From Candidatus Saccharimonadota bacterium (GTDB lineage: Bacteria; Patescibacteriota; Saccharimonadia; Saccharimonadales; Saccharimonadaceae): a stretch of 64,000 nucleotides of DNA. The notes beneath the pieces were generated by a model that saw only the letters and a list, made by a program, of their open reading frames with translations, was not told where the DNA came from and ran no database searches. The translations under genes and the position numbers were made by a program. The stretch lies in NCBI GenBank assembly GCA_015655045.1, contig JAATFU010000003.1, positions 1 through 64,000 of the forward strand, in the 5' to 3' direction. Shown piece after piece: positions 12,720-54,320 of this stretch. Each line of letters begins with the position of its first letter. The first letter of the stretch is position 1.

Positions 12720-12767
12720 CCAAAACGAAAATATCCCAACTCACTGGTTGGGATATTTTCGTTTTGG
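12720..12767 (-). terminator. tmRNA terminator, perfect 21-bp hairpin
   Basis: Arms 12720-12740 and 12747-12767 are perfectly complementary over 21 bp around a 6-nt loop (TCACTG). The minus-strand arm begins with the CCA end of tmRNA itself. On the minus strand the descending arm contains TTTTCGTTTT, so this is likely the ssrA terminator or 3' processing hairpin. Confidence 0.75.
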
Positions 12768-13173
12768 TGGAGCTGCGGGGAATCGCACCCCGGTCCGAAA
12801 GGTAACAAATTATTTGTCTACAAGTTTAGTCTACCTAGCTGCTTAATGACATTCAGAACTAAAGGGAAACGAAAATATCCTTCATGTCACGCAATAAAGT
12901 GTCCTGATTTGTTGTTGCTGCCCCACAAATCAGTAAGTAACATCGTATATAACACCCTCCTGTCGTATGTTACCTAGACAAAAAGATGGCATTAGGGATT
13001 AACCTAAGCTGTTACTGAAGAAACCTGAAGCTTGAATGGACTAAAGTCCACTTGGGCAAAGATATTCTTAAGTGATGCAAGTTTGTTTGCAATTAAATTA
13101 TGTAGGTTACGCCTACGGTCGACTTGCAAAATAATTTATTAAAATCCTTCCGTCGAAAGCTAAAGTCAGCCCC
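12765..13173 (-). ncRNA. ssrA: Transfer-messenger RNA (tmRNA)
   Basis: The 5' end GGGGCTGACTTTAGC and the 3' end GCAGCTCCACCA form the tRNA-like acceptor stem (GGGGCUG with CAGCUCC, one G-U), and CCA is encoded. A T-arm with CGGGG/CCCCG stem precedes it. Length is 409 nt. tmRNA rescues stalled ribosomes together with SmpB. The likely resume codon is GCA in TTAATT-GCA-AAC, and the frame then runs 28 codons to TAG (starts ANKLASLKN, ends LQVSSVTA), though the tag frame is not certain. The hairpin TGGAC-TTTA-GTCCA fits helix P5. Transcription is minus, with a 21-bp hairpin at the 3' end. Confidence 0.93.
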
Positions 13174-43822: not shown

Positions 43823-43858
43823 TTGATTAATGAATGATCACCTCTGTTATGATATACT
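43823..43858 (+). promoter_or_regulatory. Captured ychF promoter
   Basis: TGTTATGATATACT supplies an extended -10 (TATGAT at 43848-43853, or TATACT at 43853-43858), with TTGATT at 43823-43828 as a possible -35. TATACT ends 7 nt before the orphaned ychF ATG at 43866, the leaderless spacing seen elsewhere in the window. It now reads into the element cargo. Confidence 0.55.
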
Positions 43859-43865
43859 GAGCGAT

Positions 43866-43898
43866 ATGAGTTTATCTATCGGCATAGTGAGGACTTAG
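43866..43898 (+). pseudogene. ychF: Orphaned 5' end of ychF (first eight codons) at the element's left end
   Basis: ATG AGT TTA TCT ATC GGC ATA GTG encodes MSLSIGIV, the same peptide as the N-terminus of the intact ychF at 53238 (MALSIGIV), then the frame continues AGG ACT TAG and stops. Between the two copies only about 9 of the first 24 bases are forced by identical codon positions; most codons differ by synonymous changes, so this is not a simple duplication. The fragment marks where the original gene was split. Confidence 0.85.
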
Positions 43899-43977
43899 CT
43901 ATACCATTCGAGATGACGATCCAGATGCCCGCACGACCGAACAAAAGAGGTTACCCGAAACGACTCCAGGAGGAAAT

Positions 43978-45120
43978 ATGGCACAAGTATTCAGCTTCAC
44001 TCACCTATCCGGCGGGCAACGAATTTTCCTCGGAAACCCGCGTATAAATTCAGATAAGCCTGACTATACCGGCTATCAGTATTTCGATATCTATGACGAC
44101 GAATACTTGGACAATAGATTGGGCTGTATTGGTATTCGCATGACTTCGACCGTCTCCGACCTCTGGGAATTCGGTCAGAATGATGCTCGAAAATTGCTCA
44201 GTGAAGTAATGCGGCTCGCACTCCCTCTCCTAGATTTACCTATTTCATTAGAGCAATATTCAACAATTAAAGGTGGTTACTTCCCAATCGTAGAACTATT
44301 TTGGGAGGGTAATTCATTCTACGATGAGAAGAATCACATAGTACATGTACTCTCTGGGAAATCCCCAGAAGATTTCTTTAAGACCGTAGTGTTCAAAGGT
44401 AAGTTCAAGGACGAAAGCGTAAGAACTATCATCTTAGCTTATGGATACCTCGAAAGTCTTAGTAGTCAGTTCGGAGACTTTAGGTTTCCTTCGCTGGAAC
44501 TTCCTCAAGCAATATGGCCTATTAACCCCGAACGAGTTACTAGAGCATACTATGGTCTTGTGGAGGACGGCTTCCTTGAGCCCACAGGCGGTAAAACGAG
44601 CTCTGGCTTTTCAACATTCACCCGCATACCCTCACATACACGTCGTCTGATCGAGAATATCGAAGAGCCGACTGCAGGAGAAGTTCAGGGCGTTACTCCG
44701 GATACCGAACCAACGCCATCAATCGCTCCTTACATATCAGAGAAGATCGCCGCGAGCCTTCTGGCATCCGCGAAGACTCGCAAGTACCACACAGCAAAAC
44801 TGGAAGAAATAATATTCGAGCTGAATGATGCCGTTGAACGCAATAAAGCTTTGTCTGCCCACTCTCTAACTAGAGCCCTCTTGGATCACATCGCTCCGTT
44901 ATTCGGACATAAGACATTTGCACAAGTCGCCAATAACTATTCTTGGACTCAAACGGATAAAAAACGTGTTCAACAGTTGGATACGATCTTTAGATTTGAC
45001 GCTGACGATTCGCTACACACTCCGATTTCAAGCCGCGCTACAGATATAGATATGCAATCGATTCCCCTAATACGTCGGACTATAAACGTAATATTAGAAG
45101 AAGCATCAAATCAAAAATGA
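43978..45120 (+). CDS. Unknown 380-residue cargo protein, first gene of a two-gene unit
   Basis: I do not recognise a named family. Residues about 1-175 form an alpha/beta region (GCIGIRMTSTVSDLWEF, LEQYSTIKGGYFPIVELFW). A winged-helix-like segment is at about 180-215 (INPERVTRAYYGLVEDGFLEPTGG). The C-terminal domain at about 250-378 is helical and contains RALLDH (about 298-303), an RxxxxH pattern as in HEPN ribonucleases, but this alone is weak. The ribosome binding site AGGAGG is 4 nt before ATG. It lies right after the left attachment site and is probably driven by the captured ychF promoter. Fifteen nucleotides separate it from the next gene. Confidence 0.55.
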   Translation: MAQVFSFTHLSGGQRIFLGNPRINSDKPDYTGYQYFDIYDDEYLDNRLGCIGIRMTSTVSDLWEFGQNDARKLLSEVMRLALPLLDLPISLEQYSTIKGGYFPIVELFWEGNSFYDEKNHIVHVLSGKSPEDFFKTVVFKGKFKDESVRTIILAYGYLESLSSQFGDFRFPSLELPQAIWPINPERVTRAYYGLVEDGFLEPTGGKTSSGFSTFTRIPSHTRRLIENIEEPTAGEVQGVTPDTEPTPSIAPYISEKIAASLLASAKTRKYHTAKLEEIIFELNDAVERNKALSAHSLTRALLDHIAPLFGHKTFAQVANNYSWTQTDKKRVQQLDTIFRFDADDSLHTPISSRATDIDMQSIPLIRRTINVILEEASNQK

Positions 45121-45134
45121 TATAGGAGTTTACA

Positions 45135-45716
45135 ATGGCAGTCCCGCAAATCATTTACAAGATAGATGAAGTTATTCAATCAACAAGCACTTGGACTGAA
45201 GTTGAAGTAACCTACGTATTAGTTCAGACTCGAAAACTCTTAGACCACGCTAAGGGCGAAATTAAAAACGGTGAATACACACAGCTGAGATTCTACTGCG
45301 ACTGGGTGGTACATGTTAACAAAGACTATATCGACGCGAACACTCTTAAGATCCTAAAAGGCGTAGAGAGCGGGATGAAAGAAATGATGGGCAGACCTAG
45401 TTATCACAGTAAAGAACCTATCAGCTTTGCGTATTTCGATAATCTTCAGAAAGAACTAGCAGACTTCTTAGTAACACAAGGTATCAGTCCGACTTTAACT
45501 GAAAGTGATGTCTGGATAGATGTTATTTCAAGTCTCGTGAAAATACTCGAGAACCAACCTTTGAATATTAAAGCCTCTTACGGAATGATAACCAAGTCAT
45601 TCGAGTTTCAGCCAAGCGCGCCCAGAACCGTATGGCTAAGGGCGATTTTTAATGAATCTTTTCAAGCAGCGGACGGCGTAAGTTATGGTTACTTTGATTT
45701 GAAAAACGCTTATTAA
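45135..45716 (+). CDS. Unknown 193-residue cargo protein, second gene of the unit
   Basis: No family is recognised. It is helical at the N-terminus (WTEVEVTYVLVQTRKLLDHAKG), has the conserved-looking FYCDWVVHVNKDYI near residue 57, and a more beta-rich C-terminus (ASYGMITKSFEF, GYFDLKNAY). TAGGAG precedes the ATG, and the stop of the 380-residue gene is 14 nt upstream, so they form one operon. It is convergent with the HEPN-like pair, ending 9 nt from it. A two-component defence or toxin-antitoxin unit is an inference from context. Confidence 0.55.
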   Translation: MAVPQIIYKIDEVIQSTSTWTEVEVTYVLVQTRKLLDHAKGEIKNGEYTQLRFYCDWVVHVNKDYIDANTLKILKGVESGMKEMMGRPSYHSKEPISFAYFDNLQKELADFLVTQGISPTLTESDVWIDVISSLVKILENQPLNIKASYGMITKSFEFQPSAPRTVWLRAIFNESFQAADGVSYGYFDLKNAY

Positions 45717-45725
45717 CTCCGCATT

Positions 45726-46307
45726 CTATTTTGAAGACTTCTGCGCAAGCAGTTCTAGTTCCTGCGAGTAATCATCCGGATCAGAATCAATACCGATATA
45801 GCTGGTGCAGATCTCTTTAACAATTTTTAAATAAAGCTCTCTTAGGTGCGTCATATCTTTCTCGATAGTTTCAGTATCCGGATAGGCCTCAAGTACTTCT
45901 TTGATACTGTGTTCGTCTTGATGTGCGGTACCTTTATTTAGGTAGAAGCTGAAGTGCCCATGTATCTCTTCGAGCTTGGCAATCTCTTCTGCTCTTAGTT
46001 CAGGCTTGAGCACTTTATTCAACAACCTCCTGACTGAGCGTCTACTAGATAGATCCGTCATCCTCCGCATATCCAACGCGTATGACTGCAGGGACATACT
46101 CATTACACGCGGCAGGAGTTTAGATTCGTTCTTTAAACCAATTGCGTTGACCTGTTTAAGTACTTCTAGATCTTCTTTTGCTTCGTCGTAATTATGAGAG
46201 AACTTATAAAGATAGTCCCCTAGCTCTTCGTGATCAGAAGTCGGCACAATGGGAGCAAATTGGAAGGCTTGTGCGAACGCCTCTTCGCCAGGTGAACGAC
46301 TCGTCAC
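45726..46307 (-). CDS. HEPN/AbiU2-like protein, second of an overlapping pair
   Basis: This 193-residue, largely helical protein (LEVLKQVNAIGLKNESKLLPRVMS, RRLLNKVLKPELRAEEIAKLEE) contains FYLNKGTAHQDE at about residue 120. It resembles the RxKxxAHxD signature of AbiU2/HEPN proteins, but the Arg is replaced by Leu/Asn, so it may be inactive. Its ATG overlaps the stop of the RHALIHND gene (ATGA). It ends close to and convergent with the 193-residue unknown gene. Possibly the partner or antitoxin of the upstream gene. Confidence 0.5.
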   Translation of the reverse strand: MTSRSPGEEAFAQAFQFAPIVPTSDHEELGDYLYKFSHNYDEAKEDLEVLKQVNAIGLKNESKLLPRVMSMSLQSYALDMRRMTDLSSRRSVRRLLNKVLKPELRAEEIAKLEEIHGHFSFYLNKGTAHQDEHSIKEVLEAYPDTETIEKDMTHLRELYLKIVKEICTSYIGIDSDPDDYSQELELLAQKSSK

Positions 46308-46855
46308 TTCAACAACTCCAGTTCCTTTAAGATATCATCTGGTGGGTTATCGTACTCAAACCCCACTGCAATCTTCACAAGGCTTGTATCACCCTCTTGA
46401 GTTTTTTGCTCCAAGTAGGTCTGTAGGTCTGTATAAAGAGTTTTTATATCTACTCCAATGTGATCGTGCATCATAATATGTCCGCCGCCGATTGTAAGAG
46501 ATATACCCCAATTTATGGTTCGATCTTGATAGATAGCGTGCTGAAGTTGATCGTTATGTATTAGCGCGTGCCTAAACATTCTCCAAGTTAGCGCGGGTAC
46601 CGGTATGCCTAGCGCTTCGCCCATAAAATCTTCTATCTTCATTTCTTCAACTTCAGCGACCGCTTCAATAACAGGCATAATCATCCTTACGCCTGACCAG
46701 AAACCCACACCCGCACCCGACGAGTGTTGATTCGATTCAATCAGTTCAATATAAAACCCGAGTTCATTCGCTAGTCTTTTCGATATGCTTGATAAGTACT
46801 CCGACTTTGGAAACTCTTTGTACACAAAATGTGATCCTGACGGTGGTCTCTTCAT
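46304..46855 (-). CDS. HEPN-like protein with RHALIHND motif, first of an overlapping pair
   Basis: This 183-residue protein has helical segments around FRHALIHNDQLQHAIY (about residue 87), matching the R-[NH]-xxx-H motif of HEPN ribonucleases such as abortive-infection and MNT/HEPN toxins. A beta region follows (INWGISLTIGGGHIMMHDH). No nucleotidyltransferase partner is next to it; the partner is instead another HEPN-like gene overlapping by 4 nt. No strong ribosome binding site is seen (AATAGGT). A 159-nt gap with a G+C-poor tail separates it from the ATPase gene. Confidence 0.55.
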   Translation of the reverse strand: MKRPPSGSHFVYKEFPKSEYLSSISKRLANELGFYIELIESNQHSSGAGVGFWSGVRMIMPVIEAVAEVEEMKIEDFMGEALGIPVPALTWRMFRHALIHNDQLQHAIYQDRTINWGISLTIGGGHIMMHDHIGVDIKTLYTDLQTYLEQKTQEGDTSLVKIAVGFEYDNPPDDILKELELLK

Positions 46856-47014
46856 ATACCTATTGTAGTCCCTTTGTATCAGATACGTGAGAGAGCGAAT
46901 TTCTGCACAGACAACAGAGGTAAAAGCCTAAAACACTTGCTCCCTCTCTACGCGCAAGACCCCGCCCCCCCTTTCACTTCATTCATTTCTGTACTTAGTG
47001 CGCGCGCAAAAAAA

Positions 47015-49363
47015 TTATAAATTAAGTGCCGTATACTGGTGGATCATCTCTTTTAACTCAGTCCAGCTTGTCGCTCCGTCGCGCGGGTAGTGCGCTAAAC
47101 CGCCGGTGTTACAGTAGTTGTAAATCTCGAGGATCTTGTCCTTATTAGCGAGAAGATCTGCGAACATTTGACCCGAGTTCGACGCGACCTGTTCAATCAT
47201 CTCGTTCAGACTATCTTTCGAATAACCGAAGTATTTTTCTTTGATCTTAGTTTCCAAGCAAAAACGCAGCTTCTGTCCGTAGACGACTATATTCTCGTCT
47301 GTGCCAAGCTCCGTATCGATATTTTGGAAATCGAGTTCAAAGCTACTAGTAATCGTTTCAAGGTTGGACGGCACATAGTGAATCGACGAGCCGGCGCTCG
47401 AGAAAATATAGTAGTAGTTCCTGTTACTGATTTGCTTGAGAAGATACGTTTTAAACAATGGATCGCAAGTGAACACAAAGAGCTGTCGGAACGGCGCTGT
47501 GATGTCGGCAATTGTCTGCGCTGTTGTTTTGCGCTTACCTGCGTCAAAGTTTGTGATCGGATCATCGAGCACTACAATCATCTGATCTTGATCTTTCATC
47601 TTTTCCAACATCGCAAAGAAATATGCCAACGCAACAACCTGTCGCTCACCGTCGCTTAATGAGTCCATTTTGTCTTTACCATTCACCTGAATCATAAAGC
47701 CACATTGGGCAGGACTTTCGATCTTCCGACGATCAAATGTCGACTTACCGCCGATATTGAAAACACTCATCTTCGGGCTTAGTATTTTTACAAGCTCGGC
47801 AATTCGAGCATAGTGTTCCTCGACCCACTTACTGAACTGGTCGACTATTGCGTCTTTTGTAGTTTGATAGATCCGCTCAAGTGCGTCGACGACGGTGTCA
47901 TTCTTCGAGATTTTTTCATACTGATCGATCAGGCGAATTAGTTCGACCTTGTTCGTCATATAAATAATCTCAACATCAAGTTTAGCGATCTTCTGGTCAA
48001 GTTCTGCAATACGATCGCCCAATTTACCGCCCGACGCGTCAGTCTTGAGTTTTTTGATAAGTTCATTGATCGCTTTAACGGTTGTATTGTGCGAGTCAAT
48101 CGCCTTATCAATACGTGCAACAACTTTCTCTAGGTCTGCGTACTTTGATCCTGTTACCTTTTCCAGTGTCTTAGCGAGCTTGGTATCAATGAGATCAATC
48201 TCGTCCTTAATCAATTGGCGATCCGCTTCGGTTGCACTAACTACCGCCGGATCAGTTTCGACCGTTACATACTTCTTTGCTTCAACAAGACGATCGTTAT
48301 TAACGTGAGGCTGTTGAACATCTCGCAAGTTCCCCAAAAGTACTTTATATTTTCGGAGTTCAGAAGCCACTTCAGTCTCCGAATCACTAAACTCTTCCGT
48401 AAAGATTTTTTTATACGAATCGGTCAGAGGTAGACCTACGACGCTTTGTGTACAATAAGGACAATGGTCAGGATCTTTGCTGAGAAGTTCCGTTCCCTCT
48501 TTCACAAAGTGTTGCTTGTGCTCAACCGCAGCTAGGGCTTTTTTAACGGCTTCAGACACTGAAAAGCCGAGAAGCTCATCAACTTTAAGATCATACTCTT
48601 CTTCCACGCCGCCTTTATAACGCTTGGCCTTGAGAGTTGGTTTCTCGTCCACTTCGTCAAGCAGCTGTAGCGCAGCAATTTCTTTTTCTTTCTTCTGAGC
48701 TTCCGCCAGCTTTCCTCGCTCTTCGACGAGTTTTGCTTGTTCAAGTTTAGTGTCATCGAGCTTAGTTGGATCAGAGGCTTCAATGAGTTTTCGCGCCGCA
48801 TACACGTCACTCGCGTCCATATCTTTGGGCGACAAAGGCGCGATGTCTTGTGCATTTTGACGTTTGAGCTCGTCCGTTTTTTTCTTCAGCGTGTCCTTAA
48901 CTTTGATAAGTTTTTCAATCTCTTCGTTATGAGAGCCGAAGTCCCCCAGAAAAACGATATTCTTTCCTCGTTCAGCATCGCGGCCGCCCGCACCTTGCGG
49001 AGTTTTACCAGTCGAGTGAACATAACGATCGATATATTCGCGATCAAAAATAATGATCTTCTTCTGGAGCGAGTTGTCTTTCCACGACGCGCCGTCATAC
49101 TCAATGTCCTTGTCCTTGCGCATTGATACAACCAACTTTGAGGGCTGATCTTCCATATACCAATTCTTTTCGATTTGGCCATTGAGCTTCATCGCTACGA
49201 GGATCTTGATGAGATTGCTTTTTCCGCTGCCGTTCTCGGCAAAGATTACATTATTCTTCACAAAACTACTGACATCGTTACCTTTAATCGGCAGATTAAC
49301 GGTGTCCCATTTGTACCCAACATACGACAATACATTACTCGCCTCGACGATACGCTTAATCAT
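47015..49363 (-). CDS. RloC/PrrC-like AAA_13 ATPase, candidate anticodon nuclease
   Basis: The 782-residue protein has ABC/SMC-type ATPase halves around a long coiled coil. Walker A is ENGSGKSN (43-50), the signature LSDGERQVVAL about 566, and Walker B MIVVLDDPITNFD about 595. In the coiled coil CPYC (about 300) resembles the zinc hook of RloC. The C-terminal region has LRFCLE (RxxxE, about 696-700) and a later GLAHYP histidine (about 756), the R-E-H layout of the RloC/PrrC nuclease. RloC cleaves tRNA anticodon loops under phage attack; here this is an inference. It overlaps a 54-residue gene by 8 nt. Confidence 0.65.
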   Translation of the reverse strand: MIKRIVEASNVLSYVGYKWDTVNLPIKGNDVSSFVKNNVIFAENGSGKSNLIKILVAMKLNGQIEKNWYMEDQPSKLVVSMRKDKDIEYDGASWKDNSLQKKIIIFDREYIDRYVHSTGKTPQGAGGRDAERGKNIVFLGDFGSHNEEIEKLIKVKDTLKKKTDELKRQNAQDIAPLSPKDMDASDVYAARKLIEASDPTKLDDTKLEQAKLVEERGKLAEAQKKEKEIAALQLLDEVDEKPTLKAKRYKGGVEEEYDLKVDELLGFSVSEAVKKALAAVEHKQHFVKEGTELLSKDPDHCPYCTQSVVGLPLTDSYKKIFTEEFSDSETEVASELRKYKVLLGNLRDVQQPHVNNDRLVEAKKYVTVETDPAVVSATEADRQLIKDEIDLIDTKLAKTLEKVTGSKYADLEKVVARIDKAIDSHNTTVKAINELIKKLKTDASGGKLGDRIAELDQKIAKLDVEIIYMTNKVELIRLIDQYEKISKNDTVVDALERIYQTTKDAIVDQFSKWVEEHYARIAELVKILSPKMSVFNIGGKSTFDRRKIESPAQCGFMIQVNGKDKMDSLSDGERQVVALAYFFAMLEKMKDQDQMIVVLDDPITNFDAGKRKTTAQTIADITAPFRQLFVFTCDPLFKTYLLKQISNRNYYYIFSSAGSSIHYVPSNLETITSSFELDFQNIDTELGTDENIVVYGQKLRFCLETKIKEKYFGYSKDSLNEMIEQVASNSGQMFADLLANKDKILEIYNYCNTGGLAHYPRDGATSWTELKEMIHQYTALNL

Positions 49364-49520
49364 CGGTCTTTTCTTCCCCTAAGTAGATATGAGATTTTTC
49401 GGACAACGCAGCAAGAATGTCATCGACCTCTTCGTCGATATGCTCCCCCACAACCGAACCGACTTGCTTGTCGAGTTCCTGTTTGAGGCTTGCTGACGTT
49501 TCAGAAATAATCTTCCCCAT
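49356..49520 (-). CDS. 54-residue acidic protein overlapping the RloC-like gene
   Basis: The frame starts MGKIISETSASLKQELDKQV, continues with an acidic middle (HIDEEVDDILAALSEKSH) and ends GEEKTDD. Its stop lies within ATGATTAA, where the ATPase gene starts, an 8-nt overlap implying coupled translation. It is probably a single amphipathic helix. As a small acidic upstream partner of a nuclease-type ATPase it could be an inhibitor or assembly peptide; that is inference. No recognised family. Confidence 0.55.
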   Translation of the reverse strand: MGKIISETSASLKQELDKQVGSVVGEHIDEEVDDILAALSEKSHIYLGEEKTDD

Positions 49521-49565
49521 ACCTGTTATTTTACACGAATAGTTGTGGAGATTACAGCATAAGCG

Positions 49566-49652
49566 TTAAGAGTTTTTGGAGTCGATCTCAATCAATATCT
49601 CAAAGAACTCTACTAGCGAAGCGAGATCTTCGTCAGACAGCGAGTTCTGCAT
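49566..49652 (-). CDS. Possible 28-residue peptide overlapping the 170-residue gene
   Basis: ATG at 49652 opens a frame MQNSLSDEDLASLVEFFEIL then IEIDSKNS before TAA, overlapping the end of the upstream gene by 20 nt in another frame. The sequence resembles a short acidic helix. No independent ribosome binding site is seen, so it would depend on coupling. It may be a chance frame. Confidence 0.25.
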   Translation of the reverse strand: MQNSLSDEDLASLVEFFEILIEIDSKNS

Positions 49653-50145
49653 TGATCCTCTTGCGAATGTTGCTCTCAAGTGTATTCAGGACTGGCGCGA
49701 TATAACGCCCTGTGTCAGAGGTAAGCGCATTATGCCCCTCAACAACGTGGCTCATAAAGGCCACTCCAATTTTGGCGGCTGACTTCATAGCCAAATACTC
49801 ACGAACACGATTAGTCATCAGCTCATAATGCGGCTGTCGGTCACCTTTCGCGATTACCTTGTCCTTTATGAACCGATCAAATACGTCTGACAGCACTTGG
49901 TCTAGTTTTTCGCTCGAAATACCCCTTTCAATAAAGAACTTGTACGCGTACTGCAGCGCGACATAGTCGAGTTCATCGCTCAACTTCGAGGCATTAAAGC
50001 CGATTATACCGTTCAATTCGCGCTCCTTATCAACAAATACTCTATTCGGAATAATATCGGCTCGGAAAACTAGAATATACCCAAGTATGTGTTCAATGGA
50101 TCGATCTTTGTACACTGGTGCTGTTCTCTTATTCAGGCCAAACAT
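49633..50145 (-). CDS. Unknown 170-residue element protein divergent from the XRE regulator
   Basis: The protein has no family I recognise. It starts MFGLNKRTAPVYKDRSIEHI, is mostly helical, and has several aromatic-basic segments (LQYAYKFFIERGISSEKLDQVLSDVFDRF). It is transcribed away from the XRE gene across a 64-nt space that holds a perfect inverted repeat, so that regulator probably controls it. No signal peptide or membrane helix is seen. Confidence 0.5.
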   Translation of the reverse strand: MFGLNKRTAPVYKDRSIEHILGYILVFRADIIPNRVFVDKERELNGIIGFNASKLSDELDYVALQYAYKFFIERGISSEKLDQVLSDVFDRFIKDKVIAKGDRQPHYELMTNRVREYLAMKSAAKIGVAFMSHVVEGHNALTSDTGRYIAPVLNTLESNIRKRINAELAV

Positions 50146-50156
50146 ATTTATAGATT

Positions 50157-50192
50157 AACACCAACTCTAGTGCGTGGTCTAGTATTGGTGTT
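50157..50192. promoter_or_regulatory. Inverted-repeat operator candidate between divergent genes
   Basis: AACACCAA (50157-50164) and TTGGTGTT (50185-50192) are perfect complements 20 nt apart, lying between the start of the 170-residue gene (minus) and the XRE gene (plus). A second TTGGTCT half-site-like copy sits at about 50192-50198. Position and symmetry suit autoregulation by the XRE protein. Confidence 0.55.
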
Positions 50193-50209
50193 TGGTCTGT
50201 AATGAAGTT

Positions 50210-50470
50210 ATGAAACCAAATCTCGGCAACATCACGCGGTTACAAAAGAATGCTGAAAAACAAAAGTTCGGCAACCACATCGGTAAGCGATTGCGTTCTG
50301 TTCGCGAAAAAGTCGGGATCAGCCAAGAACAACTCTCTGAACAAGCCGGCTATTACCGAACATACGTAGGTCATATTGAAAATGGTAAACACTCCCCTAG
50401 CGTTCATACTATGTGGCGTTTGGCGAAAGTAATGAAAGTGGATCTGGGCGACCTACTCAAAGGGCTGTAG
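50210..50470 (+). CDS. XRE-family HTH transcriptional regulator
   Basis: The small protein (86 residues from ATG 50210, 92 if started at 50192) has an HTH_3 domain: VREKVGISQEQLSEQAGYYRTYVGHIENGKHSPSVHTMWRLAKVM. The recognition helix is near YRTYVGHIE. It probably represses the element genes, binding the inverted repeat directly upstream. The next gene starts at GTG one base after its TAG, so they form one operon. Confidence 0.85.
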   Translation: MKPNLGNITRLQKNAEKQKFGNHIGKRLRSVREKVGISQEQLSEQAGYYRTYVGHIENGKHSPSVHTMWRLAKVMKVDLGDLLKGL

Positions 50471-50471
50471 C

Positions 50472-51161
50472 GTGGATCAGACTTTGCTGAAATTACGTCG
50501 TGCTCTCGAAGAGGGCTACGAGATTCAGCGTAAAAGAAATGCGTACAGGACTCCAGCGATTCCAAAAGCCGGCGATCCTGACTACAGGTCTTTTGAACAC
50601 AGTATGGGTGAACATTACCGACAGAATCATCGGCCGCAAGATTTCACCGATTGGACGAATAATCTCGCAGACCTTTTCTCTACTTATCGACTTAACTTTG
50701 GACGCTTCAAACACATCACCGATTCCGGTATCGATCCCGAAACCGACTCTCACGCAAAGGCTTTCAAACGCCAACTTGATGAGCTCGACAAGATCACCAA
50801 CAACACCGATTATTTCAGATCCTATCAACTTCTACCGGCACACCCCGAGATCACTTTCGAAGATCGCCGACTTGCGCAAGGCTACCAATTCCACAACTTC
50901 AACCAGAGCAACCCTCACGTCGTGTCGCTGCTAACGCTGCTATGGGAAGATCGTAGAATTGAAAACGAGGACGGTAAAGTGCTCCGCGCCGGCAAGCCAA
51001 CTACGCTACCGCGAATATATAAAACTCTCGGACTAACCCACGACAGTTTTGATTTAACAGTCCGCGCAATTCACGCTGCGACTCACCGCAAAAAGATCGA
51101 TCTAAAGATTCGATACCCGAAGCAGCAAGCGCAACTCGTTGCGATCCAAGATTCTATGTAA
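50472..51161 (+). CDS. Unknown 229-residue element protein (GTG start)
   Basis: No family recognised. It is charged and helical, with aromatic-rich segments (FTDWTNNLADLFSTYRLNFGRF) and a C-terminal part that may be a winged helix (LPRIYKTLGLTHDSFDLTVRAIHAATHRKKIDL). It starts with GTG one base after the XRE gene, with no room for its own promoter, so it is translationally linked to the regulator. A DNA-related accessory role of the element is possible only by position. Confidence 0.5.
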   Translation: MDQTLLKLRRALEEGYEIQRKRNAYRTPAIPKAGDPDYRSFEHSMGEHYRQNHRPQDFTDWTNNLADLFSTYRLNFGRFKHITDSGIDPETDSHAKAFKRQLDELDKITNNTDYFRSYQLLPAHPEITFEDRRLAQGYQFHNFNQSNPHVVSLLTLLWEDRRIENEDGKVLRAGKPTTLPRIYKTLGLTHDSFDLTVRAIHAATHRKKIDLKIRYPKQQAQLVAIQDSM

Positions 51162-51299
51162 CAAAAATTTGTTCACTGAAAGAAAATCTACCAATTAACA
51201 GAGGTAGATTTTTCAATTGCGTTACTACCAAGAATACGCCCTGACGAGCCTTTTGGCCGGCCGTAGACTCAATTGAGAATCGATAAAAAAGGATCATTT

Positions 51300-51581
51300 A
51301 TGAACGAAATCGGGAATGAGAATAGCGAACTGAATAAGAAACCGACTGTACAGCAAGTTGATGATCTTGCGCGTGCAATATGCAGCCAGTTCAGTAATCA
51401 CGAGTATTTCAAATGGTACTGCTCGGCAATATGGAAGCTCGGCGAACATCGTGTTCAAGAGTTACGCGCACGAGTGAGCGACGCAAAAGATCCTGCTCGC
51501 CTATTCACCACACTCTTAAAAGAGGATCTGAAAATCTATGAAATGAACGAAACTCTCCGAAAGATGTTGGGTGGGAAATAA
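51300..51581 (+). CDS. Unknown 93-residue element protein
   Basis: The start ATG 51300 is preceded by AAAAGGATC. The product (MNEIGNENSELNKKPTVQQV at the start) is helical with a conserved-looking HEYFKWYCSAIWKLGEHRVQELRARVSDAKDPARLFTTLLK region that resembles small proteins found next to mobile-element recombinases in Patescibacteria. No function is known to me. Its end overlaps a 38-codon frame in another register. Confidence 0.5.
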   Translation: MNEIGNENSELNKKPTVQQVDDLARAICSQFSNHEYFKWYCSAIWKLGEHRVQELRARVSDAKDPARLFTTLLKEDLKIYEMNETLRKMLGGK

Positions 51582-51687
51582 GATCGAACCAGTCGTAATT
51601 TATGAGCCGCTCGAAGAATCAGCGGAAATAAATGAGGTATTTGATTATATTTTTGCTTTAATAGTAACAGATGATAATACGCACTAG
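51571..51687 (+). CDS. Possible 38-residue protein before the recombinase
   Basis: A GTG at 51571, overlapping the end of the 93-residue gene, opens VGNKIEPVVIYEPLEESAEI and continues to FALIVTDDNTH before TAG. The GGTGGG before it could act with coupling. The peptide is acidic and fits a short alpha/beta piece. It ends 13 nt before the recombinase start. Small ORFs at this place are common beside serine recombinases, but coding is not proven. Confidence 0.35.
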   Translation: MGNKIEPVVIYEPLEESAEINEVFDYIFALIVTDDNTH

Positions 51688-51700
51688 TATTGGGGGGTGA

Positions 51701-53296
51701 ATGAAACGCGCAGCACTATACGCTCGAGTCAGTACAGCTCGACAAGAACAAGAAGAAACTATCGATTCGCAGATCGCCGAAGTTAAGCAGCGTATCGATG
51801 AGGACGACGCATTTCTTACGACCGAGCGCACCTACGTCGACGAGGGCTACTCTGGTTCAATGCTCGAACGACCCTCACTCGACGCTATGCTCGACGCAGC
51901 GAAGAACAAAGAGTTCGACGTCGTCTACATTTATGATCTTGGCCGTCTGTCGCGACAGCTCTCTCACCTACTGATCGTTATCGAGCAGCTCGAAAAATAC
52001 GAATGTGAGGTCATATCACTGCACGAACGAATCACCGGAACACCAGAAGATAAGTTCTTGTTGCAGATTATGGGATCAATGCACGAATACGAACGTGCAA
52101 AGATCGCTGAACGTTTTCGTAGAGGTAAAATGTACAAAGCGCGAAGCGGAAAGATCGTCGGTTACAATGCGCCCTATGGTTACGTCTATAACAAAGAAAC
52201 CGGATCGTTTGATATTAACGAATCCGAAGCTGAGGTCGTCAGAAAGATGTTCGAGTGGGTCGCTCACGAGGGTTTATCAACCTATGGCCTAATTAACCGA
52301 CTGCACGATCAAGGCATTATGCCGCCAAAGAACAAAGACGAATACTGGAGTCGAAGCCCAATCGCACGAATCCTCAATAACGAAACATACATTGGCAAAC
52401 ATCACTTCAATAAGACCGAGTCGATACTCCCCCACAACCGCAAAGAGTCGAGCAAATATCGCAAGATTCAAAAGACCGGCCGGCGCGTCCGCTCACGCGA
52501 TGAGTGGATCGAGTTCGAGGTGCAACCTATCATTAGTAAAGAATTATTTAAGAATGTTCGTGTACAGCTTGATCGTAATTCCAAGTTCAACCCGAAGAAT
52601 CGCAAACACCAATATCTCTTAACTGGCCTAGTGAAATGCACCTGTGGCTCGAACAGAAATGGCGACGGCCCTGCCGGCAAGAAATACTATCGCTGCACAA
52701 GCAGAAATAAGTCGCACCCAATTAAGAATCATTGTACGGTCGGCGGCATAAACGTCGGCGTTGCTGATAGTGTCGTCTGGAATAAGATATCAGACCTACT
52801 AACCCGCCCAGAATTGATCCGTAACCACGCTGAAAGGTGGCTTGAACAGCAGAAAAGCATAAAGACGATCACGAATACGGAATCATTAACCGGCCGTCTT
52901 ACAGAGCTTCAGAACGAGCAGCGACGCTACGTTGAGGCCTATGGAAAAGGCCTTATGCCGGAACAACTATTCTCCGAGAAGATGAACGAAACCAACAAAC
53001 AACTCGACGCTATCAATAAAGATATTACTAATGCTTCGGTAAACAGGGGTATTCTTGCTAAGATAGATATTGAACAGCTTATTCAACGAGCTACACGAAA
53101 AATCGAAAGCCTCGAGTTCGAACAGAAGAAATATATTATCGAGCGTGTGATAGATAAGATCATCGCAAGCCCACAGGAGATTACAGTATGGGGACACTTA
53201 CCCACTCAAGCACTAGCATTCGCGGAACAGGTCAACTATGGCTCTCAGCATAGGAATTGTCGGCCTCCCAAATGTCGGGAAATCAACTCTCTTTAA
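51701..53296 (+). CDS. Large serine recombinase (integrase of the element)
   Basis: The 531-residue protein has a resolvase domain (residues 1-150) with the catalytic serine at 11 in YARVSTARQEQ, and DLGRLSRQ. A recombinase domain follows at about 160-290 (GYNAPYGYVYNKE, SRSPIARILNNETYIGKHHF). A zinc ribbon at about 306-350 has cysteines in KCTCGSN, YRCTSRN and HCTVGG, with a coiled coil after it. The last residues ([15 protein letters not shown]) are encoded by the ychF start region in another frame, so the gene overlaps ychF by 59 nt. GGGGGGTGA precedes the ATG. Confidence 0.92.
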   Translation: MKRAALYARVSTARQEQEETIDSQIAEVKQRIDEDDAFLTTERTYVDEGYSGSMLERPSLDAMLDAAKNKEFDVVYIYDLGRLSRQLSHLLIVIEQLEKYECEVISLHERITGTPEDKFLLQIMGSMHEYERAKIAERFRRGKMYKARSGKIVGYNAPYGYVYNKETGSFDINESEAEVVRKMFEWVAHEGLSTYGLINRLHDQGIMPPKNKDEYWSRSPIARILNNETYIGKHHFNKTESILPHNRKESSKYRKIQKTGRRVRSRDEWIEFEVQPIISKELFKNVRVQLDRNSKFNPKNRKHQYLLTGLVKCTCGSNRNGDGPAGKKYYRCTSRNKSHPIKNHCTVGGINVGVADSVVWNKISDLLTRPELIRNHAERWLEQQKSIKTITNTESLTGRLTELQNEQRRYVEAYGKGLMPEQLFSEKMNETNKQLDAINKDITNASVNRGILAKIDIEQLIQRATRKIESLEFEQKKYIIERVIDKIIASPQEITVWGHLPTQALAFAEQVNYGSQHRNCRPPKCREINSL

Positions 53297-54320
53297 TGCA
53301 CTCACGAATAACGACATCCTGGCAGCTAATTATCCATTCGCCACAATTGAGCCAAATACCGGCATCGTTGCCGTACCGGATGAGCGTCTCGCTCAACTTG
53401 GTAAGCTCTATAACTCTAATAAACTTATTCCTGCAACTGTTACCTTTGTTGATATTGCCGGCCTTGTAGCTGGCGCAAGCCAAGGTGAAGGCCTAGGTAA
53501 CAAATTCTTAGCTAATATCCGTCAATGCGACGCTATCATCCATATTGTCCGAGCATTTAACGATCCAGATGTGATCCATGTCTCGGATAAGGTAAGTCCG
53601 CGTGACGACATTGATATTATTAACACCGAGCTAATCCTGGCGGACATCCAGACTATTGAAACCCGTTTACCAAAGGTCGCAAAAGAAGCCAAGGCTCAAC
53701 CAACAGCCCGTGCTCACGCCAAATATCTCGAGGATCTCCTTGTTCATTTAAAATCCGGTACCCCCCTATCCGCCCTTACCTCACTCCAAACCGAGTACAT
53801 CGCAGATCTTCATTTGTTGACAGCGAAGCCAGTCATTTACGTCTTTAATGTAGATGAGGCAACCTTATTAGATGAGGCAAAAAAAGCCGAGCTGAATGCC
53901 CTCGTCTCACCTGCCCGAACAATTTTTGTATGCGCAAAGTTAGAGGAGGAGTTAAAGGGTCTGACACCTGAAGATGCAGCCGAACTCTTGGAGAGTTACG
54001 GTGTTAAAGAAACCGGACTCATGCAGCTCATTCGCGCAGCTTACGACACTCTCGGCTTACAAAGTTATCTCACAGCTGGAGTTCAAGAAGTCCGTGCCTG
54101 GACTATCAAAAAGGGTGCTACTGCTCCCCAAGCAGCCGGTGTTATCCATGGTGACTTTGAGCGCGGTTTCATTGCCGCCCAAGTAGTCGAATATCATGAT
54201 CTTATTGCGGCCGGCTCAGAAGTAGCTGCCAAGGCCGCCGGAAAAATGCGAACAGAAGGCAAAGAGTATATTATGCAGCCGGATGATGTCGTTGAGTTCC
54301 GCTTTAACGTCAGTAAGTAA
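53238..54320 (+). CDS. ychF: Redox-regulated ATPase/GTPase YchF (Obg family)
   Basis: The 360-residue protein has [15 protein letters not shown] (P-loop), [20 protein letters not shown] (G3), and the [12 protein letters not shown] region, with a TGS-like C-terminal domain ([32 protein letters not shown]). YchF/OLA1 binds ribosomes and prefers ATP. The first eight codons come from the mobile element and replace the original start left at 43866. Expression must now come from recombinase read-through or an element promoter. The coding sequence is intact. Confidence 0.96.

Follow-up and report, generated by a model that had tools for sequence, protein, structure and literature searches.

A large serine recombinase element that probably replaces the start of ychF and the end of its own integrase gene in Saccharibacteria

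Integrative and conjugative elements (ICEs) of the SXT type insert at the 5' end of prfC by means of a tyrosine integrase and supply a new start to this gene, and SCC elements are inserted at the 3' end of rlmH. The integrase of Myxococcus phage Mx8 is a tyrosine-type enzyme as well, and we know of no regeneration of a gene start by this phage. According to the part of the Mx8 work consulted, int contains attP and acquires a new 3' end with altered properties when the phage integrates (PMC6070905). The integrases of the archaeal elements SSV, pTN3 and pT26-2 are called suicidal, as their gene is cut by its own integration, and are termed exclusive to archaea in the consulted section of a review (PMC8371274). 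Beside ychF, the prophage group PPH005 was described in pneumococci, a defective member being reported as a ychF switch in the excerpt consulted (PMC8637289). Here we describe a 9,372 bp element which lies in ychF between positions 43881 and 53253 of a 64,000-nucleotide stretch of Candidatus Saccharimonadota DNA (termed the window in the following; contig C5 of an 848-kb genome of 8 contigs, 99% complete). Element boundaries, crossover core, conservation of and selection on the detached integrase tail, recurrence in other genomes and the finding of all four attachment site types make it likely that this is a site-specific element of a large serine recombinase (LSR). As far as can be judged from sequence, it appears to work like Mx8 and to resemble the archaeal suicidal integrases, but with a serine recombinase.

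With SXT-type ICEs the element shares the replacement of a gene start, whereas the type of integrase, the target and conjugation differ; no relaxase or transfer genes were found among the element genes of the window with Pfam and NCBIfam (a 54-aa ORF at 49356-49520 was covered by PADLOC only). The nearest named LSR families in NCBIfam are the Ccr recombinases of SCCmec (CcrB, 2e-44), of which the enzyme is not a member, scoring 152 bits against a curated cut-off of 900. The position of attP in the integrase gene and the new 3' end on integration are shared with Mx8 as described in the portion of that work consulted; Mx8 is, however, a phage with another target. Likewise, attP inside the integrase gene and a gene cut on integration are found here as in the archaeal systems of the partly consulted review. 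There, the part with the catalytic domain is detached from a tyrosine recombinase, whereas here a bacterial serine enzyme loses only its tail, and due to its serine recombinase domains it does not belong to the archaeal tyrosine family. PPH005 differs in that its attB lies between a DUF951 gene and ychF, outside the ychF coding start, and in other bacteria, as stated in the excerpt. Neither a link between an LSR and ychF in Patescibacteria nor an LSR with attP in its own gene was found in the open-access literature searched, which is a weak negative.

Both starts of ychF named in a preliminary description of the window are seen in the sequence. Reading from the ATG at 43866 gives MSLSIGIVRT and a stop, that is, a stub of 10 codons (43866-43898; forward strand, as for all features below unless stated otherwise). 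The intact ychF of 360 aa (53238-54320; PF06071/PF01926) opens at the ATG at 53238, its codons 1-5 (MALSI, 53238-53252) being supplied by the element. The two starts were said to differ synonymously, which holds for codons 3-8; codon 2 is Ser (AGT) on the left and Ala (GCT) on the right. Uninterrupted ychF loci exist in genomes of the genus and in the metagenome-assembled genome (MAG) G818, and the proposed comparison with such loci of relatives revealed that native starts resemble the left copy. In a pattern search with simple regular expressions, a -10-like box just 5' of the ATG was found in 26 of 28 native starts and a Shine-Dalgarno (SD)-like motif in two, as against one -10-like box and 13 SD-like motifs in 15 ychF starts at attR. 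In the window, these are the box TATGAT of the native, near-leaderless promoter (43848-43853) and the SD-like site AGGT supplied by the element (53229-53232). Native starts comprise 23 genomes of the genus and the host side of five attL sites, and attR starts are those beside an integrase or an integrase remnant; the window's own genome counts among the attL sides, G005 among the attR starts and G025 among both, and the native starts of G002 and G017 were taken 3 nt out of register. A YchF match was obtained in 27 of the 28 genus genomes, those in G009 and G011 being weak and at a paralogous GTPase; both, together with G027, have no full ychF start and were left out. With a left end of the native and a right end of the element kind, the host's start is to be seen in the left copy and that of the element in the right copy, as the preliminary description had it. 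The target ORF is intact after insertion, with its end supplied by the element. From these motifs, insertion is read as turning a near-leaderless ychF with its own promoter into a ychF with an SD-like site behind the integrase gene, with which we infer it to be transcribed.

The proposed insertion by a serine recombinase is borne out by an LSR ORF (51701-53296, 531 aa in the integrated form) that overlaps ychF by 59 nt, stop included, and contains the Resolvase (PF00239, 8e-35), Recombinase (PF07508, 3e-20) and zinc beta ribbon (PF13408, 7e-8) domains. Both ends are available for four elements, namely those of G059 (10,762 bp), G098 (12,190 bp), G044 (10,856 bp) and the window. Over 10,858 nt, the G044 element has an identical copy in G121, while longer flanking blocks are 67-73% identical; N gaps frame the G121 copy, so that a shared assembly is possible. 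If the ends of the four elements are joined as a circle, the integrase frame stays open into a tail of 41 codons (55 in the window). In the integrated state of these four, the frame continues beyond the junction for 14 residues, for which ychF bases are read in another frame, and the length of this substitute end varies in other genomes. The site attP is therefore placed by the sequence within the integrase's own 3' coding end, so that integration also swaps the C-terminus of the integrase. The detached tail of the window (RHSEDLAIPFEMTIQMPARPNKRGY..., 43880-44044), which is in the integrase frame only with the ends joined, was matched by a tail profile with an E-value of 3e-19, this copy being itself one of the four in the profile.

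Comparison of attL, attR and a natural attP, together with the dyad symmetry of attP, places the crossover at the GG of the Gly6 codon, 43881-43882 in attL (the left element boundary) and 53253-53254 in attR (the right one). The unbroken attP of G818 on contig C31 (...CTCAGTATA-GG-CATAGTGAG...) reads TATA-GG-CATAG around the core, compared to ATC-GG-CATAG in attL and CATA-GG-AATTG in attR of the window. As attP differs from attL in the base before GG and from attR in the base after it, only GG fits. The AT of Ile7 was rejected as core, since GG is followed by C in the G818 attP and in attL of the window, but by A in attR of the window. Dyad symmetry over 25 attP sites averages 13.1 of 25 when centred on GG, whereas the average at none of 24 other centres exceeds 8.1; 19 of the sites have their single best centre at GG, and in one more, that of the window, GG is tied. 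This set consists of 24 sites joined in a script and the natural one; rows are partly non-independent, near-identical elements (e.g. G059 and G098) being counted separately, and the named locus L204 (which has an attL), three duplicate genomes and G350 were left out. With the crossover in codon 6, only the ATG and codons 2-5 are replaced. Non-identical attB and attP, a 2-bp core and a dyad-symmetric attP were thus all found for this LSR. All four site types occur in natural sequence, attL and attR in the window and attP and attB in the G818 MAG. Separately, repeated att-like segments were observed in the integrase 3' coding end of L173, L166 (G044, G061), L219, L230 and L234; perhaps they are footprints of past recombination.

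The tail carries a conserved IPF motif, encoded at the far left end of the element. Searching 16 positive genomes with the profile of four tails gave a credible tail in 13. Eight of these are new, being neither profile members nor copies (G097, G061, G266, G350, G193, G286, G204 and G005; E 1.7e-20 to 3.6e-4), and each lies shortly 3' of a ychF stub and GG. For five tail pairs, two of which share G044, dN/dS in the integrase frame was 0.07, 0.19, 0.09, 0.42 and 0.14, compared to about 0.7 to 5 in the other two frames, which shows purifying selection on the tail. Since the whole element lies between the integrated tail and its gene, this selection would act on the form with joined ends. For the full-length G818 enzyme, an AlphaFold2 model (mean pLDDT 78) predicts the tail motif as part of a strand (residues 525-532). 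A second, inner tail copy without a ychF stub was observed about 2-2.5 kb inside the left end in G059 (C2:99292-99414, L118) and G098 (C1:397103-397216, L117), and both elements look composite.

To judge from several assemblies, elements of this kind probably also occur outside their insertion site. Contig C31 of the G818 MAG (9,251 bp) looks circular, with an exact terminal repeat of 127 nt and an intact attP with tail, and is related to the window's element (74% nucleotide identity in the integrase gene, 85% in that of the HTH regulator). On C4 of the same MAG, ychF is uninterrupted and starts with MSLSI, so that an empty attB and an attP are found in one bin. C31 is likely a free circle; its source could also be a different member of the sample. 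Two contigs of G025, one ending in a ychF start of the uninterrupted type and one beginning in an integrase joined to ychF, share an exact overlap of 99 nt, as expected with both states in one sample. One contig of G805 contains attL and a first element, then an attP-like junction with the beginning of a second element, and another contig has an integrase joined to ychF (C11, 46094-59520, and C44; L151, L169 and L149). The best reading is that two ychF elements stand in tandem here, the two contigs being presumably linked. The first integrase is fused there to the tail of the second element, giving a chimeric full-length enzyme. Contig C11 was also considered as a phage with an intact attP, which was rejected, as it begins with the chromosomal left flank. 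Remnants with only the 3' part of the integrase before ychF occur in G062, G083, G097, G193 and G204.

A search of Saccharibacteria for serine recombinases ending in the start of ychF, as suggested earlier, showed that the arrangement recurs, also across many Patescibacteria. The 11 best integrase matches among 151 genomes of the family all run into ychF, as do 14 of 14 matches with E <=1e-40 in a survey of 394 family genomes, nine of which are already among the former and five are further ones. In the latter survey, a match in G006 (4e-23) does not; its other weaker matches were inspected to a small part, and the surveys share some genomes. From surveys of the phylum (379 genomes) and the order (392 genomes), 29 new loci were inspected, 17 of them at ychF. 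The others are one circular contig, one tandem copy, one locus elsewhere (G514:C4) and nine weaker loci (E 9.5e-32 to 5.9e-51), the listed neighbouring ORFs of six of which do not include ychF, while the other three end where the contig ends. Named genomes were scanned with an alignment of 17 ychF-adjacent LSRs, and the best 80 of 115 loci were kept. In 64 of these 80 the integrase end overlaps the ychF start, all of them in Patescibacteria or unclassified bins (among them Saccharibacteria, Roizman-, Collier-, Woese-, Davies-, Nomura-, Kaiser-, Yanofsky-, Komeili- and Gracilibacteria, WWE3 and bins that carry no group name). One ychF-adjacent LSR, L128 (G530 C22), contains an in-frame TGA and is probably broken.

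Nine named loci lie outside Patescibacteria, in Bacteroidetes, Bradyrhizobium (L214, L225) and one gammaproteobacterial bin (the others being L199, L200, L202, L219, L220, L230 and L234). The tail motif is joined to the integrase in all nine, in one with a frameshift, and at least five (L200, L202, L214, L220, L225) have an attP-like dyad; L225 has two attP-like sites 10 kb apart. The insertion targets of these nine loci were sought and not found. In a quick tree of 85 LSRs, all 60 rows of the ychF type (57 named loci, the window, the circular contig and the tandem copy, the last two by our own labelling) fall into one branch of 74 with a support of 97, and the ychF label requires 7 changes compared to 21.7 in shuffles. 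On this tree the use of ychF looks old, and the target has apparently changed at times. An origin from a known phage or plasmid was rejected: the best relatives in named phages and plasmids (best 20 of 147 and best 20 of 90) are 27-36% identical. Viral contigs gave no match with the single integrase; with the 17-row alignment, the best 80 of 186 loci were kept, and identity was 28-31% in those with the strongest E-values. The window's own genome contains a second, distant LSR (G000 C8:16236-16949, 24% identity).

Most likely, the element is moved by the LSR, with the start of ychF as attB and with attP in the 3' coding end of the LSR itself. Recombination at the GG of Gly6 would provide ychF with another ATG, other codons 2-5 and an SD-like site, and would leave the old near-leaderless promoter with the 10-codon stub at the other end. 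In the same reaction, a tail of about 40-55 residues would be cut off the integrase and exchanged for a short unrelated end (14 residues here), and excision would restore the ychF promoter and the full-length integrase together. By the swap, the integrase of the inserted state may behave differently, being weaker or biased against re-integration, which would render the reaction self-regulating. This could describe an ancient bacterial LSR family in which the position of attP itself carries control of direction, the swap gives different enzymes in the inserted and the free state, and ychF, a conserved GTPase gene, is moved from its near-leaderless promoter to an operon of the element, a reading we put forward tentatively and would not bet on at even odds. 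Control of LSR direction by fusion to the directionality factor is described in the part of the study consulted (PMC5737554), by analogy with which a regulatory C-terminal addition is plausible. A candidate for a directionality factor is a 61-aa protein of the HTH_17/excisionase family directly before the LSR in G059.

That the inserted state simply lacks activity has about the same probability as control of direction by the swap. Here the tail would be an ordinary structural end, the loss of which disables the enzyme and locks the element, without any directional switch, until a full-length integrase comes from another copy. We give this account serious, if less than even, credence. It is in accordance with the predicted strand at the tail motif, with the tail-bearing full-length integrase of the G805 tandem copy and with the precedent proposed for archaeal suicidal integrases in the consulted section (PMC8371274). 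However, the inserted form retains complete Resolvase, Recombinase and zinc-ribbon domains, while the archaeal enzymes of that section have the part with the catalytic domain detached. Moreover, 16 matching sequences of solved structures align only up to residue 496 of the window's LSR, so that these relatives are without a recognisable tail. Were the tail without any role as protein, its sequence could be kept as the right half of the attP DNA, to which the first ~25 nt after GG do belong as part of the dyad; but selection on amino acids was measured over ~40 codons, beyond the half-site, and the IPF motif is kept in distant homologs, which makes this explanation improbable. A crossover at the GT of Val8 with eight codons replaced, which was the original proposal, is rejected. 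The GT is common to 43887 and 53259 in the window, but is absent at that place from attL of G044 (ATC-GG-CATATTAAAG), where it is thus not the core, and also of G061 and G286, and both the natural attP and the centre of symmetry place the change at GG. An assembly artefact or an old duplication of the ychF start might be suspected, as the genomes are mostly metagenome assemblies and N gaps flank the G121 copy; with the integrase-ychF junction recurring in many genomes, including two titled complete chromosomes (CP055308.1 and CP011209.1), and with uninterrupted ychF sites at hand, this is hardly tenable.

Returning to the reading as a site-specific LSR element with attP in the integrase gene, several observations weigh against it. 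Six of the 25 attP sites do not have GG as single best dyad centre, the window's own tie being one of them. The left end (stub, GG and tail) was found in only 17 of the 64 named ychF loci within the sequence covered, counting the best match per locus with a domain E <1 and a ychF-like stub required. No tail match was obtained in G062 and G083, both remnants, that is, in two of the 16 positive genomes, and the match in G025 (E 0.3) is not credible. Two further tail pairs are saturated at synonymous sites and give no ratio, and the predicted tail strand is of moderate confidence only (blocks of mean pLDDT 63 and 70). The branch of the ychF-type LSRs also holds 12 that are not at ychF, in addition to two cut by contig ends. 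Finally, the circular-looking G818 contig, for which its title gives a low coverage of 1.6, could stem from a tandem array.

The old ychF promoter now faces the first cargo gene of the window (43978-45120, 380 aa), which indeed has a strong SD site (AGGAGG, 43968-43973). The claimed takeover of this promoter would apply to the window but is not general: in a mechanical ORF listing of 11 elements, including the circular form of G818, the first ORF past the left end is co-directional in seven and opposite in four (G044, G061, G286, G097), so that promoter capture looks like a by-product, useful in some. The first cargo gene is without a Pfam, PADLOC or NCBIfam match; a similar gene is found at the same place in the G818 element. 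It is followed by genes without family match for proteins of 193 aa (45135-45716; Pfam, PADLOC, NCBIfam), 193 aa (45726-46307, reverse strand; Pfam, PADLOC) and 183 aa (46304-46855, reverse strand; Pfam, PADLOC). An AAA_13 ATPase of 782 aa (47015-49363, reverse strand; PF13166, 2.5e-34) is similar to the candidate phage-defence family PDC-S06 (2.7e-29). Further genes code for a 170-aa protein (49633-50145, reverse strand) and a 229-aa protein (50472-51161), both without Pfam match, an XRE-type HTH regulator (50210-50470), which is the one compared with G818 above, and a small protein of 93 aa (51300-51581) 5' of the integrase. Five elements were scanned with PADLOC, and four of them (window, G818, G193 and G286) contain known or candidate defence genes. 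Besides the PDC-S06-like ATPase of the window, these are GajA and GajB of Gabija in G818, a HamB-like helicase in G193 and an LlaMI-like restriction enzyme with a cytosine methylase (type II restriction-modification) in G286, whereas the fifth, G266, gave no match with two proteins scanned. An AAA_25 ATPase occurs in the elements of G059 and G044. Elsewhere in the window, ARAGORN reports a tmRNA (12765-13173) with an unusually long tag of 28 residues (ANKLASLKNIFAQVDFSPFKLQVSSVTA), the frame of which may have been mis-called.

Serine integrases serve as genome tools, and a central issue is how their direction is set. The elements described here offer natural matched pairs, produced by the reaction itself, in which one and the same enzyme either has or lacks a conserved tail. 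For Patescibacteria, for which few genetic tools exist, they provide a mapped and recurrent insertion site with natural attB, attP, attL and attR sequences. They would also show that an integrase need not be of the tyrosine type to cut its own gene.

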